DNA from: a candidate division WS1 bacterium
GTDB taxonomy: Bacteria; Armatimonadota; Zipacnadia; Zipacnadales; UBA5352
Direction: 5' to 3'
NCBI GenBank assembly: GCA_003566775.1
Contig: PXBW01000037.1
Span: forward strand, 1 to 47,827
Length of the DNA stretch: 47,827 nt
Shown piece after piece: positions 13,939-30,292 of the stretch. Positions within the stretch are counted from its first letter, which is position 1. Every line of letters starts with the position of its first letter. The notes beneath the pieces were generated by a model, which saw only the letters and a program-made list of their open reading frames with translations, was not told the DNA's origin and made no database searches. The position numbers and the translations under genes are program-made.

Positions 13939-15273
13939 CTACTTCAAGAAGCCCTTGTAATGACGCATCAGCAACTGCGCCTCGATCTGTTGCGTGGTGT
14001 GAAGCGCCACGCCCACTACGATCAGCAGCGAGGTCCCTCCAACAAGAGTGAAGGTCGTCACACCGGTAATGTCACCCACATAGAATTGCATCAGCGCCAC
14101 CACACCCAGGAACAGCGCGCCCGCCAGCGTGATACGGTAGAGTATCCTGTCGAGGTAGTCACGCGTGCTCTGTCCCGGACGTATCCCTGGAACCGCTCCA
14201 CCGTTCTTCTGCAGATTCTCCGAGATCTGCTCCGGGTTGAAGGTGACCGCGGTGTAGAAGTACGTGAATATGATCACCAGCACGAAATAGAGGAAGGACG
14301 CGAAGATATTCTCACCCGGTGAGGTAAACTGCACCAGCGAGAACATCGCCCTGCTAACCGCCTCTTCTCCGATACGGAAGGTCTCTGCAATCCGTGCCGT
14401 CATGGCCGGGGAACTCAGACCCTGAGCGATCTGCCCGGGGAACATCGCCACCGAGATGGCGAAGATAATCGGCATAACCCCCGCCTGATTCACCTTCAGC
14501 GGAAGGTAGCTGGTCTGTCCACCGTACACCCGCTGCCCGCGCACCCGCTTCGCATACTGCACCGGGATCTTACGCTCCGCCTGCTCGAAGATCACGATCA
14601 CATAAACCGTGGCGTACATGATGATCCCGAGGAACGCGATATTGGCCAGCGAGATCTCTCCACCCTGCAGGAGACGGACCGTCGCTGCGACCTCCTGAGG
14701 CATGTAGGTGATGATTCCCGCGAAAATCAGAATCGACACGCCCTGCCCGATGCCGTGCTCGGTCACAAGATCGGCCATCCACATCAGGAAACACGTGCCC
14801 GCGACCAGCATCAACACCACGTAGAGCATGAGCAGCGTGTCGCCGATGAACGCCTGGTTACCGCGCAGGAAGGCGATCATCCCGAACGCCTGCAGCACGC
14901 AGACCACGAGTGTGAGATACTTCGTCCACGCGTTGATCTTCTGTCGCCCGTACTCGCCCTCCTTCTGAAGCTCTTCGAGGGCAGGGATCGCCATCGCCAG
15001 AAGCTGCATGATAATCGCCGCAGAGATATAGGGCATTATGCCAAGCGCCATCACTGAGAAGCGCCGCAGCGATCCTCCCGCGAAGGCGTCGAGTAGTTCG
15101 CCGAGCCCGCCAACGCCGCGGAAAAGCTGCTCGAGCTGTGCCCTGTCTATCCCCGGCAGCGGTACGTGCGCGCATGCCACATAGACGCCGAGCATAGCGA
15201 ATACGAACAGTATCCGCTTGCGCAGGTCCGGAACGCGCATCGCCTGTGCGAAGGAAGACAATCGCTCTCTCAT
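13939..15273 (-). CDS. secY: Protein translocase subunit SecY
   Basis: The protein has 444 residues with about ten membrane spans, forming the channel of the SecYEG translocon. Recognisable parts are the plug and first loop region ([16 protein letters not shown]), [15 protein letters not shown] in TM2, [50 protein letters not shown], and the cytoplasmic loop ending [31 protein letters not shown]. The start codon overlaps the rplO stop by four bases (ATGA), so translation is coupled. It is the last gene of the spc section and precedes adk. Confidence 0.97.
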
Positions 15274-15734
15274 TCGTCGATCACCTCCACGAGGCCGTCC
15301 GCGGCCTCGATCTTCTCGCGTGCCGAGGCGCTGAAAGCGTGCGCCCGCACTGTCAACGGCCGGTCAATCTCGCCGGTCCCGAGAATCTTGACACCGTCAA
15401 GAACCTTGCTGATCAGGCCGCAGGCGAGCAGCGCCTCAGGTGTCACCTCGGCGTCCGCCTCGAACTTCTCGCCCAGGCTGCCCACATTGACCACCGCGTA
15501 CTCCCTGCGGAAGATGCCGATATTGTGCGCAGCGCTTGAGATACCGCGCAGAGTCGGGACTCGCCGATACAGCGGCGTCTGTCCACCCTCAAAGCCGGGG
15601 GCGATACTCGACCTGTGCTTCTGCCCCTTCTCACCACGCCCGGCAGTCTTACCCTGGCCCGCGGCGATTCCCCGGCCAACGCGCTTTTTCGACTTACGTC
15701 CTCTCTTGTTCGGGCGAAGGCTTCCAAGATCCAT
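15270..15734 (-). CDS. rplO: 50S ribosomal protein L15 (uL15)
   Basis: The product has 154 residues, starting [22 protein letters not shown] and containing [17 protein letters not shown] and [17 protein letters not shown], the signature of L15. The C-terminal half is the globular domain ([11 protein letters not shown] ... [17 protein letters not shown]). The ATG at 15734 is chosen because it gives the usual start behind AGGAG; the frame is open further upstream without coding signs. It overlaps secY by four bases and follows rpmD. Confidence 0.97.
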
Positions 15735-15750
15735 CACAAAAACGCTCCTA

Positions 15751-15939
15751 TTACCCTTCTGCGGGTTCGATTTCAACAAGATGGGAGACCGTGCGAATCA
15801 TCCCTCGCATCGCCTCGTTGTCCGGCACCACATTGCTCTGTCCGATGCCGCGCAGGCCGAGCGAACGAACCGTCTCACGAAGTTTCGGCTTGACGCCGAT
15901 CGTACTGCGCCTCTGCGTCCCCTTTATGCTGTCAGCCAT
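15751..15939 (-). CDS. rpmD: 50S ribosomal protein L30 (uL30)
   Basis: The product has 62 residues, the normal length of bacterial L30. It reads [20 protein letters not shown], then [23 protein letters not shown] and HLVEIEP, all diagnostic. In nearly all bacteria this gene follows rpsE; here it starts only 14 bases after the rplR stop codon, so rpsE is missing from its expected position. The ATG at 15939 has a weak GA-rich leader in front of it. Confidence 0.95.
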
Positions 15940-15953
15940 GATCTCTCGCCACC

Positions 15954-16325
15954 CTAAAAGTCCAGTCCTGCTTCTCGAGCCGCGTCCGCAAGCGCGGCGA
16001 CTCGACCATGATACTTCCGCCCGCCGGTATCGAAGCACACCTGCTCGATGTCCTGCGCAAGCGCACGTTCGGCGATTACACGTCCGACCACCTTTGCGGC
16101 GTCACTATTGATCGTGGAGGCATCGCACTGGTCCGCGACCTCGTCCTCCACCGTTGCCGCCGAGACCATCGTCTCTCCGGCCCAGTCATCCACAACCTGT
16201 GTGTAGATATGGTTCAGACTGATGAACACCGCCAGCCTTGGCCTCTCGGGCGTGCCGACCAGCTTACGGCGGCCACGCATGTGCCGCTTCTTCCTCTGTG
16301 CTTTTCGATCTACTTCAGCTTTCAC
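15954..16325 (-). CDS. rplR: 50S ribosomal protein L18 (uL18)
   Basis: The product has 123 residues and carries the basic N-terminus KAQRKKRHMRGRRKLVGTPERPRLAVFISLNHIYTQVV and the C-terminal FDTGGRKYHGRVAALADAAREAGLDF signature. L18 binds 5S rRNA. Both ends of the protein are intact, so the loss of rpsE just downstream has not damaged it. It follows rplF by about 40 bases. Confidence 0.97.
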   Translation of the reverse strand: MKAEVDRKAQRKKRHMRGRRKLVGTPERPRLAVFISLNHIYTQVVDDWAGETMVSAATVEDEVADQCDASTINSDAAKVVGRVIAERALAQDIEQVCFDTGGRKYHGRVAALADAAREAGLDF

Positions 16326-16367: not shown

Positions 16368-16922
16368 TTACATATCCGCTCCGACCTTCGCAGCCTTACC
16401 GGCCTTGCGCCGGATATGCTCACCTTCATACCGCACGCCCTTGCCCTTGTAGGGCTCGGCCGGGCGCGACATCCTTATCTCTGCCGCCAACTGTCCCACC
16501 TTCTGCTTGTCGGCGCCTCGGACGATCACCTTCGTGTTCTCCTCCACCGCAACCTCAACGCCCTCCGGAGGATCGAAGATCACCTCATGGGAGAACCCGA
16601 GCCGCATGACGAGCTTCGTCCCATCCATCTCCGCCCGATAGCCAATGCCGTGGATCTCCAGCCTCTTCTCAAAGCCCTCGGTCACGCCCTCGATCATGTT
16701 CGCCAGAAGCGCGCGAGTCAGGCCGTGGAGGGAACGATCCTCTCGATTGTCGCTCGGTCGCTCAATGCTGATCACATCGTCCGCCAGCGCGATATCCATC
16801 CGCCTGTTCAACTGCTGCGTCAGTTCGCCGTTCGGTCCGCGAACTGTCGCGACATTGCGATCATCGATGTCCACCGAAACTCCGCTCGGTACCTCGATGG
16901 GCATACTTCCTATCCTGGACAT
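16368..16922 (-). CDS. rplF: 50S ribosomal protein L6 (uL6)
   Basis: The product has 184 residues, starting MSRIGSMPIEVPSGVSVDI. Two L6 repeats are visible, and the C-terminal RNA-binding motif appears as MSRPAEPYKGKGVRYEGEHIRRKAGKAAK. L6 lies near the sarcin-ricin loop and elongation-factor site. The length is ordinary. It lies between rpsH and rplR as in the standard spc operon. Confidence 0.97.
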   Translation of the reverse strand: MSRIGSMPIEVPSGVSVDIDDRNVATVRGPNGELTQQLNRRMDIALADDVISIERPSDNREDRSLHGLTRALLANMIEGVTEGFEKRLEIHGIGYRAEMDGTKLVMRLGFSHEVIFDPPEGVEVAVEENTKVIVRGADKQKVGQLAAEIRMSRPAEPYKGKGVRYEGEHIRRKAGKAAKVGADM

Positions 16923-19071: not shown

Positions 19072-21141
19072 TTACTCTTCGTCGCTCTCCTCGCGCTGCT
19101 TCGCTTCGGCAATTGCCTGATCCGTCAGATGTGCCGGAAGCTCCTCGTAGTGCGAGAAAGACATCTCGTAACTTGCGCGACCCTGTGAGATCGAGCGAAG
19201 GTCGGCCGCATAGCGCATCATCTCGCTCTGCGGCACCTGGGCCTTGATCGCCTGCATGGTGCCGACCTGCTCGGTGCCGATGATCTTGCCCCGCTTCGAG
19301 TTGAGATCGCTCATGATGTCGCCCATGATGTCCTCGGGGCCGGTCACAGTCACGTCCATGATTGGCTCCAGCAGCACGGGCTGGGCCTGCTGCATCGCAT
19401 TGCGCAGCGCGATCCCCGCCGCTGTCTGAAACGCCATATCCGACGAGTCAACTGGATGGGAACTGCCGTCATCGAGCGTCACCCGCATGTCAACAATCGG
19501 ATACCCGGCAAGGTGCCCCCGCTCCATACCCTGCACGATGCCCTTCTCCACGGCGGGAATGTAGTTCGTCGGCACTGACCCGCCCTTGATCTCGTTGACG
19601 AACTCGAAGCCCTCACCCCGCGGCAGCGGCTCCACGCGGATCCAGACGTCGCCGAACTGCCCGCGTCCGCCCGTCTGCTTCTTGTGCCGCCCCTGCACCC
19701 GCACCGCTCGCCGAACCGTTTCCCGGTAGGCCACACGCGGCTCGCTCATCTGCACATCGACATCGTACTGCTTCTGAAGCTTCGCGACCGCAACATCGAG
19801 ATGCATCGGCCCGAGCCCCTTCAGCAGCAACTCACCGGTCTCAGTGTTGCGCTCGTACTTCAGACCCATGTCCTCCGCAGTCAGTCGCGTCAGCGCATCG
19901 GACATCTTGTCCGCGTCCGCTCTCGAGGCCGCGGTTACTGCCACTGCATACATCGAATCCGGCGCGCCGGGCCGCGGGATCTCCAGCTCACTGCCCTGCT
20001 CCGCGAGAGTATCGCCGGTGGCCGTATCGTCGAGTCTTACAGCCGACCCCATGTCGCCGGCGACCAACTGCTCGACGTTCTCGCTCTCGCGAGCCTGGTT
20101 GACCCCCAGGCTCGACAGGCGCTCCCGCTCCTCACTGCGTGGATTGTACACATCCTGGTCCGCTGATACGGTGCCCGACACGACGCGCATCAGACTCATC
20201 TGCCCCACGTAGGGATCGGTCAGCGTCTTGAACACCATCAGGGCCACCGGGCCGTCGGGATCGGCCGTCAACTCGACCTCTTCCTCGCCCTCCACGCCCG
20301 TGCGCGGTGCCGCATCGGCGGGCGATGTCGCGACATCTGCGACGAAATCCATCAGCGGCGTGATGCCCGTCTCCGCCGTCGCGGCAGTGCACAGCACCGG
20401 TACCAGCGTCCCGGCGGCGACCGCCGTCTTCAAGCCCCCGATCAGCTCATCCTCGCTTAACGTTCCCTCTTCGAAATACTGCATCATAAGATCGTCATCG
20501 CTGGCGGCGACGGCGTCTATGAGTCTCTCCCGTGCCTCTTCCACCGCGTCCTCCATCTCCGCGGGGATATCCGTCTCCTCCCCCGCGCCCATGAACGCCT
20601 TCTGTGCAAGCAGGTCCACGACGCCCTCGAACGCCTCTCCCTGCCCGATGGGCAGTTGGACGCCCACGGCCTCACAATCGGGAAGACTCTCGTTCATGCT
20701 GGCGACCGCCTCGTCGAAATCCGCCCGCTCGGCGTTGAGCTTGTTCACCACGCCGATAACCGACACACCCGTGTCACGCGCCGCCTCATACATCTTGATC
20801 GTGTGCACTTCGACGCCCGCCGCCGCGTCCATTACCAGCAGCGCATTCTCCACCGCCCACAGCCCGTAGAGCGCATCCACGTAAAACTCAGAGTAGCCGG
20901 GGCAGTCAATGATGTTTATCTTTGAGCCACCATGCTCGACATGGCAAAGCGCCGGGGAGATCGAGATGTTCCGCTCTCGCTCCTGTTCCTCGAAGTCCGC
21001 CACCGCAGTCCCATCATCTACCGAGCCCAACTGCTGCACCGCCCCCGACACGTGCAGCATGGCCTCATTCAGCGAAGTCTTGCCCACGCCCCGGTGACCG
21101 ACAAGCGCAATGTTGCGCAGGTCCTCTGGTTGCCAACTCAC
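19072..21141 (-). CDS. Elongation factor G-like GTPase (EF-G2 type), divergent
   Basis: The protein has 689 residues with the full EF-G domain set: G domain, domain II (ALMVFKTLTDPYVGQMSLMRVVSG), III (GLGPMHLDVAVAKLQ), IV ([20 protein letters not shown] ... DSSDMAFQTAAGIALRNAM) and V (ISQGRASYEMSFSHYEELP). The P-loop is GHRGVGKT (15-22). The G3 motif is DCPGYSEF with Tyr83 where canonical EF-G has the catalytic His, and G4 is NKLN (133-136) instead of NKMD, with Asn where Asp reads the guanine base. These changes, and the clear second fusA in the same operon, place it with EF-G2/FusA2-like proteins, whose role is unsettled (translocation variant, recycling or another ribosome-linked function). 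The start is GTG with AGGAGG eight bases upstream. It lies between rpsQ and rplN, so it is expressed with the ribosome. Confidence 0.93.
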   Translation of the reverse strand: MSWQPEDLRNIALVGHRGVGKTSLNEAMLHVSGAVQQLGSVDDGTAVADFEEQERERNISISPALCHVEHGGSKINIIDCPGYSEFYVDALYGLWAVENALLVMDAAAGVEVHTIKMYEAARDTGVSVIGVVNKLNAERADFDEAVASMNESLPDCEAVGVQLPIGQGEAFEGVVDLLAQKAFMGAGEETDIPAEMEDAVEEARERLIDAVAASDDDLMMQYFEEGTLSEDELIGGLKTAVAAGTLVPVLCTAATAETGITPLMDFVADVATSPADAAPRTGVEGEEEVELTADPDGPVALMVFKTLTDPYVGQMSLMRVVSGTVSADQDVYNPRSEERERLSSLGVNQARESENVEQLVAGDMGSAVRLDDTATGDTLAEQGSELEIPRPGAPDSMYAVAVTAASRADADKMSDALTRLTAEDMGLKYERNTETGELLLKGLGPMHLDVAVAKLQKQYDVDVQMSEPRVAYRETVRRAVRVQGRHKKQTGGRGQFGDVWIRVEPLPRGEGFEFVNEIKGGSVPTNYIPAVEKGIVQGMERGHLAGYPIVDMRVTLDDGSSHPVDSSDMAFQTAAGIALRNAMQQAQPVLLEPIMDVTVTGPEDIMGDIMSDLNSKRGKIIGTEQVGTMQAIKAQVPQSEMMRYAADLRSISQGRASYEMSFSHYEELPAHLTDQAIAEAKQREESDEE

Positions 21142-21704: not shown

Positions 21705-22120
21705 CGGTCAAGGCCCTCCCTGCTGACGAACTGCGTCTTAATTGGAAGCTTATGCCCGGCGAGGCGCATCGCCTCGCGCGCCACGTCGGCGCTCACACCG
21801 GCCATCTCGAACAACACTCGACCGGGCTTGACAACGGCCACGTAATACTCCGGCGCGCCCTTGCCCTTCCCCATCGGCATCTCCTGACCCCGACTCGTAA
21901 CCGCCTTGTCGGGGAAGATGCGAATCCAGACCTTCCCGCCACGCTGGGCATATCGCGTCATCGCCACACGTGCCGCCTCAATCTGCCTCGAAGTGATCCA
22001 CGCGGGCTCGACGGCCATCAGGCCGAAGTCGCCGAAGTCCACGTTGCAGCCACGCTGCGCCTTGCCCTTCATCCTGCCTCTTTGCTGCTTACGGTGTTTC
22101 GTGCGCTTGGGCATCAACAT
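21701..22120 (-). CDS. rplP: 50S ribosomal protein L16 (uL16)
   Basis: The product has 139 residues, starting [24 protein letters not shown], with [70 protein letters not shown] and a C-terminal [13 protein letters not shown]16 supports the A-site tRNA elbow and the peptidyl-transferase centre. The ATG at 22120 has AGGAGG nine bases upstream and lies inside the last codons of rpsC, giving a 32-base overlap in another frame. The internal ATG at 22114 is the alternative. Confidence 0.96.
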
Positions 22121-23117
22121 CGCCGGTGTCCTCCTCGGCGTTATCGTCGTCATCTACTGCGTCTTCAAGCTCATCCTCTACGTCCGGTTCGGCGCGCTCG
22201 GCGGCATCCATCCCGCTCACCGCCACCGTCTCGTCCGGCGCCGCGGTCTCGGTCGAGGCGCTCACAGTCTCACTCTCGGCCTCGTCCGCCTCTGTGAGAA
22301 GCTCATCAATCGCGGCTTCCTCGCCCTCGCCGGCTGGCTCTGAGGGCTCTTCAGTCGCCTCGCTCGGGGTCTCCTCCGGCCGGGCCGCCGAAGCTTCCTG
22401 CTCTGCGGCCTCTTCGGCCTCGACTTCGGCGGCTTCGCGCTTCTCTTTCTCCGCCTCAACCTGTCCCTCGGGTGGACTCGGCGGAGGTGGCAGGATCTCC
22501 CCGTTACACACATACACCTGTACGCCGATATGCCCATATCCGGTGACCGCCTCGGAGAAACCCTTCTCCACGTCGGCGCGCAGAGTGTGCAGGGGCACAC
22601 TCCCCTCGGGGCCGACCCGCTCGGTTCGCGCGATCTCAGCGCCCATCAGCCGACCGCTCACTGCGATCCGGATCCCGTCCACACCGGCGCGCCTCGCCCG
22701 CTCCACCGCCTGGCCCATCGCACGCCTGATCGACGCTCTGCGCTCGATCTGACTGGCGATCTCCTCGGCGATAAGCTGGGCCCGCGTCTCGGGCGCCTTC
22801 GTCTCCTCAACGTTGACGCGCACTCTACCGGTCATCATCTCATCGAGGTCGCGCCGCAGTCGATCGACGTCCGCGCCTCCGCGCCCGATGATGATACCCG
22901 GTTTCGCGCTCTCGATCGTGATCGTGACCGCGTCGGCCGTGCGCTCAATTATCACATCGGAGATGCCGGCATGATGGTGCCGCTCCTGAATGATCTTGCG
23001 CGCGTTCAAGTCCTCGACCAGTTGATTACGGTACTCCATGCCCTCCGCGAACCACTTGCTCCGCGTGTCGCGGATGACCCCGAGACGGAACCCGTAAGGA
23101 TTTACTTTCTGACCCAT
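22089..23117 (-). CDS. rpsC: 30S ribosomal protein S3 (uS3) with long acidic C-terminal tail
   Basis: The product has 342 residues, against about 210-240 in most bacteria. Residues 1-210 are normal S3: [27 protein letters not shown] domain with [18 protein letters not shown], then [39 protein letters not shown]. From about 215 to the end it is low-complexity Glu/Ala/Asp/Thr/Ser, ending in runs of Asp and Glu. The reading frame is intact, and the tail also carries the rplP ribosome-binding site and start, overlapping 32 bases. S3 forms the mRNA entry tunnel with S4 and S5; the tail would hang off the solvent side. The core assignment is certain; the role of the tail is unknown. Confidence 0.97.
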
Positions 23118-26777: not shown

Positions 26778-28844
26778 TCAGCGAAGCAGTTCCTGCTGCT
26801 GCTCCTGTGGCACCGGCTGATACGAATCCGGCTCCATCGTGTACGTCGCCCGGCCCTGTGTGAGCGAGCGCAGCGCCGTCGCGTAGCCGAACATGTTTGC
26901 AAGCGGAACTCGCAGTTCGATCACCCGGGTGTCGCCCGTCGAGGCCTTCACCTCCACGATCTGCGCCCGCCGGGTCGTCAGATCGTTGACCACGTCGCCG
27001 AAATACTGCTCCGGAGTGATTACCTCCGCCGCCATCACCGGCTCCAGCAGCACCGGGGCGCCCGCCTCAAAAGCCCGCTGGAACGCGAGGCTCGCTGCGA
27101 CCTTGAAGGCCACGTCCGAAGAATCCACCTCGTGAAATGAACCGCCCGTCACGGTGCAACGAATCCCCACGGCCGGATAACCCCCCAGCGTACCGGCGCC
27201 CATCGCTTCCTCCACACCGGCCTCCACCGCCCCCTTGAACTCCTGTGGGATCTCGTCCCCCTTGCTCTCATCCTCATACTCCAGCCGCATCTCCGGATCG
27301 ATCGGTTCGAGTTGCAACACCACATGACCGTACTGCCCGCGCCCCCCAGTCTGCTTCACGAACCGGCCCTCGCCGTCGGTTGCCGACCTGATGGTCTCAC
27401 GGTATGCCACACGCGGCTGGCCGGTGTTTACCTCCACGTCGAACTCGCGCTTGAGCCGGTCAACGATCACCTCGAGGTGCAACTCCCCCATTCCCGATAT
27501 GAGTTGCTGACCCGTCTCGTCGGCTACCTCGAGACGGGGCGTTGGATCCTCCTGCGTCAGACGGTTCAATGCCTGACCCACCCGGTCCTCGTCCACCTGA
27601 GACTTCGGTTCGATCACCATCGAAATGACCGGTTCTGGAAAGACCATTCGCTCGAGTACGATCGGCGCGTTCTGCGCGCACAGCGTGTCACCGGTCGTGG
27701 TGTCATCGAGGCCGACCGCGGCCACGATATCACCGGGCCCGATCTCCTCAATCTCTTCTCGCCGGTTGGCATGCATGCGCAGAAGCCTCTGAATGCGCTG
27801 GGTCTGACCGTTATCCGCGTTGAGAACTCTGTCTCCGACCGCCACGGAACCGGAGTAGCAGCGTATGTAGGTGATGTGTCCGACGAATGGATCCACCGCG
27901 ACCTTGAAGGCCAGCGCCGAAAACGGCTCCGCCGGGTCCGGCGCGCGCGTCTCCTCCTCGCCCGTCTCCGGATGAACCGCGACGACCGGTGGCACATCGG
28001 TTGGAGCGGGCAGGCAGTGCACAATCGCATCGATCAGCGGCTGAATGCCCCGGTTGCTAAGAGACGACCCGCACAGCACGGGAACGAGTTCGCAGGCGAT
28101 AGTCGCCTCCCGAATCGTCTGCCACATCTCCTCCGGCGTCGGATCCTCACCGGCGAAGAACTTCTCCTCGAGATCAGGGTTGATGTCGGCCAGGCTCACC
28201 ACGAGATGCTCGCGAAACGCGGAGACCAGGTCGCGCATCTTCTCCGGGATCTCGATCTCCTGGGGCGGATCATCCTTGTCCTCGGAGAACTGCCACGCCT
28301 TCTGCTCGATCAGATCGACCAGCCCGCGATGCTCCTCTTCTCTCCCGATCGGAAGCTGGACCGCCACTGCTTCGGCCCCCAGCCGCTTGCGCATCTCGTG
28401 CAGCACATCATGAAAATCCGCGCCGATGCGGTCCATCTTGTTCACGAACGCGAGTCGCGGGATATTGTAGGTGCTCGCCTGCCGCCAGACCGTCTCCGAC
28501 TGTGGCTGGACCCCGCCGACGGCGCAGAAGATAATGCATACCCCGTCCAGCACCCGCAGCGAACGCTCCACCTCTACCGTGAAGTCCACGTGCCCTGGCG
28601 TATCGATTATGTTGATACGATGATCCTTCCAGTGACAGGTCGTGGCGGCAGAGGTGATGGTGATGCCCCGTTCCATCTCCAGAGGCATCCAGTCCATCGT
28701 GGCATCGCCGTCATGCACCTCCCCCATCCGATGCACCTTGCCCGTGTAGTACAGGATGCGCTCGGTGGTGGTGGTCTTCCCCGCATCGATGTGCGCGGCG
28801 AAGCCAATGTTCCGGGTTTTTTCCAGCGTCTTCTCGAACGCCAC
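26778..28844 (-). CDS. fusA: Elongation factor G
   Basis: The protein has 688 residues, canonical EF-G. The G motifs are [15 protein letters not shown] (17-31), RGITIT in switch I, DTPGHVDF with the catalytic His, and [10 protein letters not shown]. Domains II-V follow, with [17 protein letters not shown] and [20 protein letters not shown] in domain IV and [20 protein letters not shown] at the C-terminus. It drives tRNA-mRNA translocation and, with RRF, ribosome recycling. The start is GTG with GGGTGAA seven bases upstream. It follows rpsG after 129 bases. A second EF-G-like gene lies further down the same operon. Confidence 0.97.
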
Positions 28845-29933: not shown

Positions 29934-30005
29934 AACCTGATCCCTTTCTACGCTCGCTGCCTGCTACGCTCGACACACTCCGAACTCCCGGACCGCAACG
30001 ACTCG

Positions 30006-30030
30006 AAAACCCCTCCGACACAGGGAGGGG
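30006..30030 (-). terminator. Terminator-like hairpin in the str-operon leader (possible attenuator)
   Basis: On the minus strand a perfect 7-bp stem (CCCCTCC / GGAGGGG) with a 7-base loop is followed by TTTT. It lies 72 bases before the rpsL start and about 230 bases after the predicted transcript start, so most transcripts meet it before the coding region. TGTGTCGG is repeated before and inside the hairpin. The T tract is short, so efficiency may be partial, as expected of an attenuator. Confidence 0.55.
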
Positions 30031-30067
30031 CCGACACAATTAATCCCACCGAGTTCAGCGTCCGCTG

Positions 30068-30263: not shown

Positions 30264-30292
30264 ATTATAGAGGCGGCCCGGCGCGTTGTCAA
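30264..30292 (-). promoter_or_regulatory. Consensus sigma70 promoter of the ribosomal super-operon
   Basis: On the minus strand TTGACA (30287-30292) and TATAAT (30264-30269) are exactly 17 bases apart. Transcription should start near 30257, giving a leader of about 320 bases before rpsL. No other equally good promoter was seen down to rpsI, so it may drive all 38 genes. Confidence 0.92.

Follow-up and report, generated by a model that had tools for sequence, protein, structure and literature searches.

The ribosomal protein gene rpsE lies outside the spc operon across the class Zipacnadia (WS1; Armatimonadota), as a stand-alone gene with a predicted promoter and leader hairpin

The window, that is, the whole stretch of 47,827 nucleotides analysed here from a candidate division WS1 bacterium, carries most of the spc and alpha ribosomal protein operons in the order L16-L29-S17-(EF-G)-L14-L24-L5-S14-S8-L6-L18-L30-L15-secY-adk-map-IF1-L36-S13-S11-S4-rpoA-L17. 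Only rpsE, encoding S5, is missing from the spc operon, and the genes that flank its usual position are intact, the pattern of a single-gene translocation. The first-pass annotation had noted this absence at the rplR/rpmD junction, and it was confirmed here: the gap measures 14 nt, and both flanking genes score above their NCBIfam cut-offs (Table 1).

Table 1. Features at the rplR-rpmD junction of the window and at the relocated rpsE locus.
Feature	Position	Strand	Remarks
rplR-rpmD junction, site of rpsE in other Armatimonadota	15940..15953	-	14 nt
rplR (L18), intact upstream flank	15954..16325	-	TIGR00060, 130.5 bits vs cut-off 87.85
rpmD (L30), intact downstream flank	15751..15939	-	TIGR01308, 67.7 bits vs cut-off 44.65
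rplO (L15)	15270..15779	-	TIGR01071; listed start overlaps rpmD, later start likely
rplF (L6), spc operon gene upstream of rplR	16368..16922	-	TIGR03654
secY, downstream spc operon gene	13939..15273	-	TIGR00967
Relocated rpsE, outside the window	G000:C141:17572-18210	-	212 aa, both Pfam S5 domains
Promoter and leader hairpin of relocated rpsE	C141:18246-18308	-	predicted from sequence

Other features of the window were also observed. An elongation factor G-like gene of the NF009381 subfamily (19072-21141, minus strand) lies in the spc region with S17 on one side and L14 on the other; it occupies this position class-wide, and in many other inspected Armatimonadota it is found between L5 and S14. 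At 26778-28844 there is a second EF-G-like gene. The S3 protein (22089-23117, minus strand) has 342 residues, of which a tail of about 139 follows the end of the C-terminal domain near residue 203.

The first-pass annotation had proposed a profile search for S5, and the draft genome of the window (4.41 Mb, 368 contigs, 91% complete) was accordingly searched in six frames with PF00333 and with PF03719. Exactly one S5 was found with either domain, on contig C141, so that the gene does lie elsewhere in the genome as had been predicted; no second copy was detected with these profiles in any of the 368 contigs. The window contig (C300) gave zero matches, in agreement with the earlier reading that no frame in it resembles S5, and a divergent S5 hidden in the window is rejected by the same search. 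The protein encoded on C141 exceeds the cut-offs for both domains (PF00333, 73.6 bits; PF03719, 85.4 bits) and is of the bacterial type, with 182.4 bits for TIGR01021 (cut-off 164) compared with 83.9 bits for the archaeal/eukaryotic TIGR01020, below its cut-off of 182. The suggestion that a highly divergent form might exist therefore stood only in part: by domain and family tests this is an ordinary bacterial S5, whereas the S5 branch on the class stem is unusually long, as discussed below. Its nearest named relatives are found in MAGs of Candidatus Zipacnadia, candidate division WS1 and Armatimonadetes bacterium, and C141 matches the window in composition (GC 0.62; tetranucleotides, r = 0.989). 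It was also observed that the C-terminal tail of S5 in the class is variable, mostly strongly acidic and up to about 130 residues long; most inspected outgroup tails are shorter.

The class Zipacnadia is the GTDB class UBA5377, named from marine sediment MAGs in a paper whose text does not mention ribosomal proteins (PMC10290634). The genome of the window was assigned to it from its S5 relatives and kinship codes. Forty-six genomes of the class, all of them drafts, were searched for S5 and L18. S5 was found in 41 and L18 in 44, and the five genomes without any S5 probably reflect binning gaps. A single copy of S5 is present per genome, away from the operon. In each of the 39 genomes having both genes, these are on different contigs; as the assemblies are drafts, chromosomal distance is not readable from them. 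The junction could be read directly in 32 class genomes as L18-L30-L15 or L18-L15, with S5 in none, and the comparison with relatives that had been recommended at first pass gave S5 in all 16 outgroup junctions read directly within the phylum. In a phylum-wide sample of 141 genomes, 118 genomes outside the class have both S5 and L18, and in 115 of these S5 adjoins L18 on one contig (adjacency read from coordinates). The other three (G094, G099 and G135) are split where contigs end, and S5-L30-L15 stands at the margin of another contig. Outside the phylum, 12 outgroup loci from a plasmid collection were inspected, and S5 follows L18 in all eight that are annotated. Given that S5 is off L18 throughout the class and after L18 in the rest of the phylum, a single relocation on the class stem is indicated. 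It is thus highly probable that the departure of rpsE from the spc operon was a single event on the Zipacnadia stem and that the gene has been passed on ever since in one copy, standing alone.

A later change concerns L30. It is absent genome-wide from all 10 tested genomes of the genera g8, g19 and g20 of family f3 (for example L101, L112 and L115), several of which are more than 90% complete, and the junctions of G011, G024 and G036 leave no room for L30 between L18 and L15. Genus g13 of the same family retains L30. L30 has therefore also since been lost in a sub-lineage of the class.

The S5 sequences of 39 class genomes formed one clade (support 98/93), in keeping with a single event and vertical inheritance thereafter. 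When nine operon proteins were used to fix the topology, the branch of the class stem was 0.408 for S5 versus 0.000-0.182 for 12 neighbours, although the S5 value would be inflated if the true placement of S5 differs from the fixed tree; the share of change within the class was ordinary for S5. The move may have come with a burst of change or with the substitution of a foreign copy for the native gene, and the data do not decide which. Under the second course, the class ancestor would have gained an rpsE of foreign origin at another chromosomal site, after which its native copy would have been lost. Such a displacement would predict exactly the misplacement that inflates the stem, and it would suit the long stem with ordinary later change as well as the mean identities of class S5, which are 46.6% to other Armatimonadota and 46.9% to other phyla, unlike the neighbour proteins, which are nearer their own phylum. 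Yet a clade uniting class S5 with other Armatimonadota S5 was not rejected (AU p = 0.40), a placement that is itself also without support, and the placements of S5 beside Fusobacterium or Vescimonas were unstable and affected by long branches. No donor was found among the outgroups compared; the best identities were below 50%, and the other groups all resemble one another more than any of them resembles class S5. A viral or phage source was rejected as well, there being no relative in viral contigs and only matches below 50% identity in phage collections, several on bacterial-looking records. Displacement of the native gene is accordingly regarded as the less probable course, at perhaps one chance in a handful. 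A burst of change at the time of relocation, which the long stem branch fits, is favoured, since none of the sampled donors is closer.

The relocated gene has a distinctive upstream region. A promoter-like site, TTGACA-17/18-TAnnnT, nearly always with an extended -10 TGn, precedes rpsE in 37 of 40 class loci, and a GC-rich hairpin lies immediately 3' of it, shortly after the predicted transcription start. In about 23 of the 40, a terminator-like site was recognized that begins no more than about 55 nt from the rpsE stop. The relocated rpsE thus looks like a self-contained unit, with a sigma-70-type promoter, a leader hairpin and often a terminator, the functions of which we infer from sequence.

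The hairpin stem is GCCCCCG/CGGGGGC in the family of the window, GCCTCCC/GGGAGGC in others and GGCTTCCTGT/ATAGGAAGCC in genus g9, and its loop varies freely in sequence and length (3-12 nt) with no conserved internal loop or bulge. It folded better than shuffles of its own leader (p < 0.05) in 26 of 37 loci and not significantly so in the other 11, the p-values being non-independent across related genomes and the hairpins GC-rich. Folding of the whole leader was clearly better than that of shuffles in one of three leaders tested. The whole-leader multiple alignment (A1) was misaligned and was not used for covariation, which was instead assessed on 32 hairpins. In these, 97.7% of the stem cells are paired, a figure favoured by the choice of the hairpins as stems before alignment and by the exclusion of the most evident exceptions, namely G015, G035, G042 and G045 together with loci lacking a clear promoter. 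Changes on both sides were seen in four of the seven pairs, the strongest single sign being pair 4, in which U-A is replaced by C-G or G-C in ten rows, and covariation was 0.359 compared with 0.158 after shuffling and at most 0.164 after sliding. By covariation, therefore, the structure of the rpsE leader hairpin is conserved. A combined promoter-plus-hairpin pattern matched 22 times in 41 whole genomes, and 21 of these matches are rpsE leaders; as the pattern was built from rpsE leaders, only its rarity elsewhere is informative. The sole match elsewhere is at G032:C267:7152-7207. No comparable hairpin was found directly downstream of five other promoter-like sites in the window. The covarying leader hairpin is thus essentially private to rpsE. 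A search against Rfam returned no RNA family except one tRNA on four loci. In the window, the rpsL leader of the str operon (29990-30050, minus strand) has a CCCCTCC...GGAGGGG hairpin followed by TTTT, which resembles an attenuator; a TTGACA-17-TATAAT promoter near 30292 stands well upstream of it.

What the rpsE hairpin does may be considered against two known kinds of leader. Stabilising 5' hairpins of the ompA type are known on highly expressed mRNAs, and like them the rpsE hairpin is GC-rich, near the 5' end and downstream of a strong (predicted) promoter; unlike them, its GCCYCC...GGRGGY form occurs essentially only at rpsE in these genomes. Autoregulatory leaders are known for several ribosomal proteins, such as S15, S4, L20 and S6:S18, and the rpsE leader shares with these a conserved structured 5' region ahead of a ribosomal protein gene. 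It differs in its simplicity, being a hairpin that has no conserved loop, no motif resembling rRNA and no Rfam match. In an intact operon, S5 is co-expressed with its neighbours, and a gene gone from the operon would need a new control of dosage. The hairpin might then bind a ribosomal protein, be it free S5 or another one, that represses rpsE and so takes the place of the operon-level control that was lost. Its conservation by structure and its near restriction to rpsE would agree with such a role, but the freely varying loop, the lack of any conserved internal loop or bulge like those of known ribosomal-protein leaders and the Rfam result all speak against it. A switch in which the 5' arm of the hairpin pairs with the ribosome-binding site was also considered; such pairing is possible in families f3 and f6 and is not kept in f1, where the 5' arm became CCCCC and the Shine-Dalgarno sequence did not follow, so that masking of the ribosome-binding site is not conserved. 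Autoregulation is consequently considered unlikely, if worth keeping in view, and slightly more doubtful still is the fuller proposal that the hairpin is a new rpsE-specific autoregulatory element which arose on the loss of operon-level control, the translocated gene having evolved its own feedback. Protection or insulation of the 5' end of the message appears to be the most likely role.

The following course of events is proposed. A copy of rpsE would have landed elsewhere in the genome, where it gained, or to which it carried, a strong promoter; once this duplicate had a promoter, the operon copy could have been deleted cleanly. The gene would then have been transcribed from the predicted promoter as its own unit, with the hairpin shielding or insulating a highly expressed mRNA at its 5' end, and own transcription may have freed it from operon-level co-regulation, allowing it to be shuffled as a portable cassette. 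The genes that flank rpsE differ between class families and the promoter-leader unit is constant. Such variation in chromosomal context might suggest that rpsE was excised several times independently in different families, but the loss itself, the promoter-hairpin unit and the single S5 clade are common to all families, and later movement of one cassette accounts for the varied contexts, which makes repeated excision very improbable. An artefact of assembly or binning, be it loss of rpsE from its contig or a contaminant gene on C141, might be feared in so fragmented and incomplete a draft but has a negligible probability, as the S5-less junction recurs in 32 class assemblies, some from different projects judging by their record titles (which also rejects an assembly gap between rplR and rpmD), C141 is composed like the window and, within the genus, the surroundings of S5 are conserved in part. 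The original reading of a clean relocation, as opposed to decay or an assembly gap, is thus borne out by the genome and by the junctions of relatives.

Few gene orders in bacteria are as conserved as that of the S10-spc-alpha cluster, a fact usually explained by the need for matched output of ribosomal proteins. Removals of single genes from the cluster have been described in Gammaproteobacteria and Bacilli, with rplJL, rpmJ, rpsN and secY as the cases given (Brandis, 2021; PMC8046335); rpsE is absent from the text of that paper. These cases resemble the present one in that one gene has left an otherwise intact operon and is found elsewhere, an effective translocation. The escapes of rpmJ and rpsN described there rest on pre-existing second copies or isoforms and that of secY on one species, whereas in Zipacnadia the relocation affects a core 30S gene, extends through a whole class and comes with a conserved leader of the gene's own. 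No report of rpsE outside the operon was found in the open-access literature. The class-wide escape of rpsE is therefore a new case of a known phenomenon, single-gene escape from the S10-spc-alpha cluster, for which no earlier report was found.

In practical terms, the arrangement provides a ready marker for the class, and pipelines that expect S5 beside L18 will miss its rpsE. More broadly, even the most conserved bacterial gene cluster can permanently lose a core member. The finding raises two questions: by what means the amount of S5 is kept in balance now that the operon no longer includes its gene, and whether this task has passed to the private promoter and hairpin. A whole class living with a core 30S gene outside the cluster makes the co-regulation argument testable.
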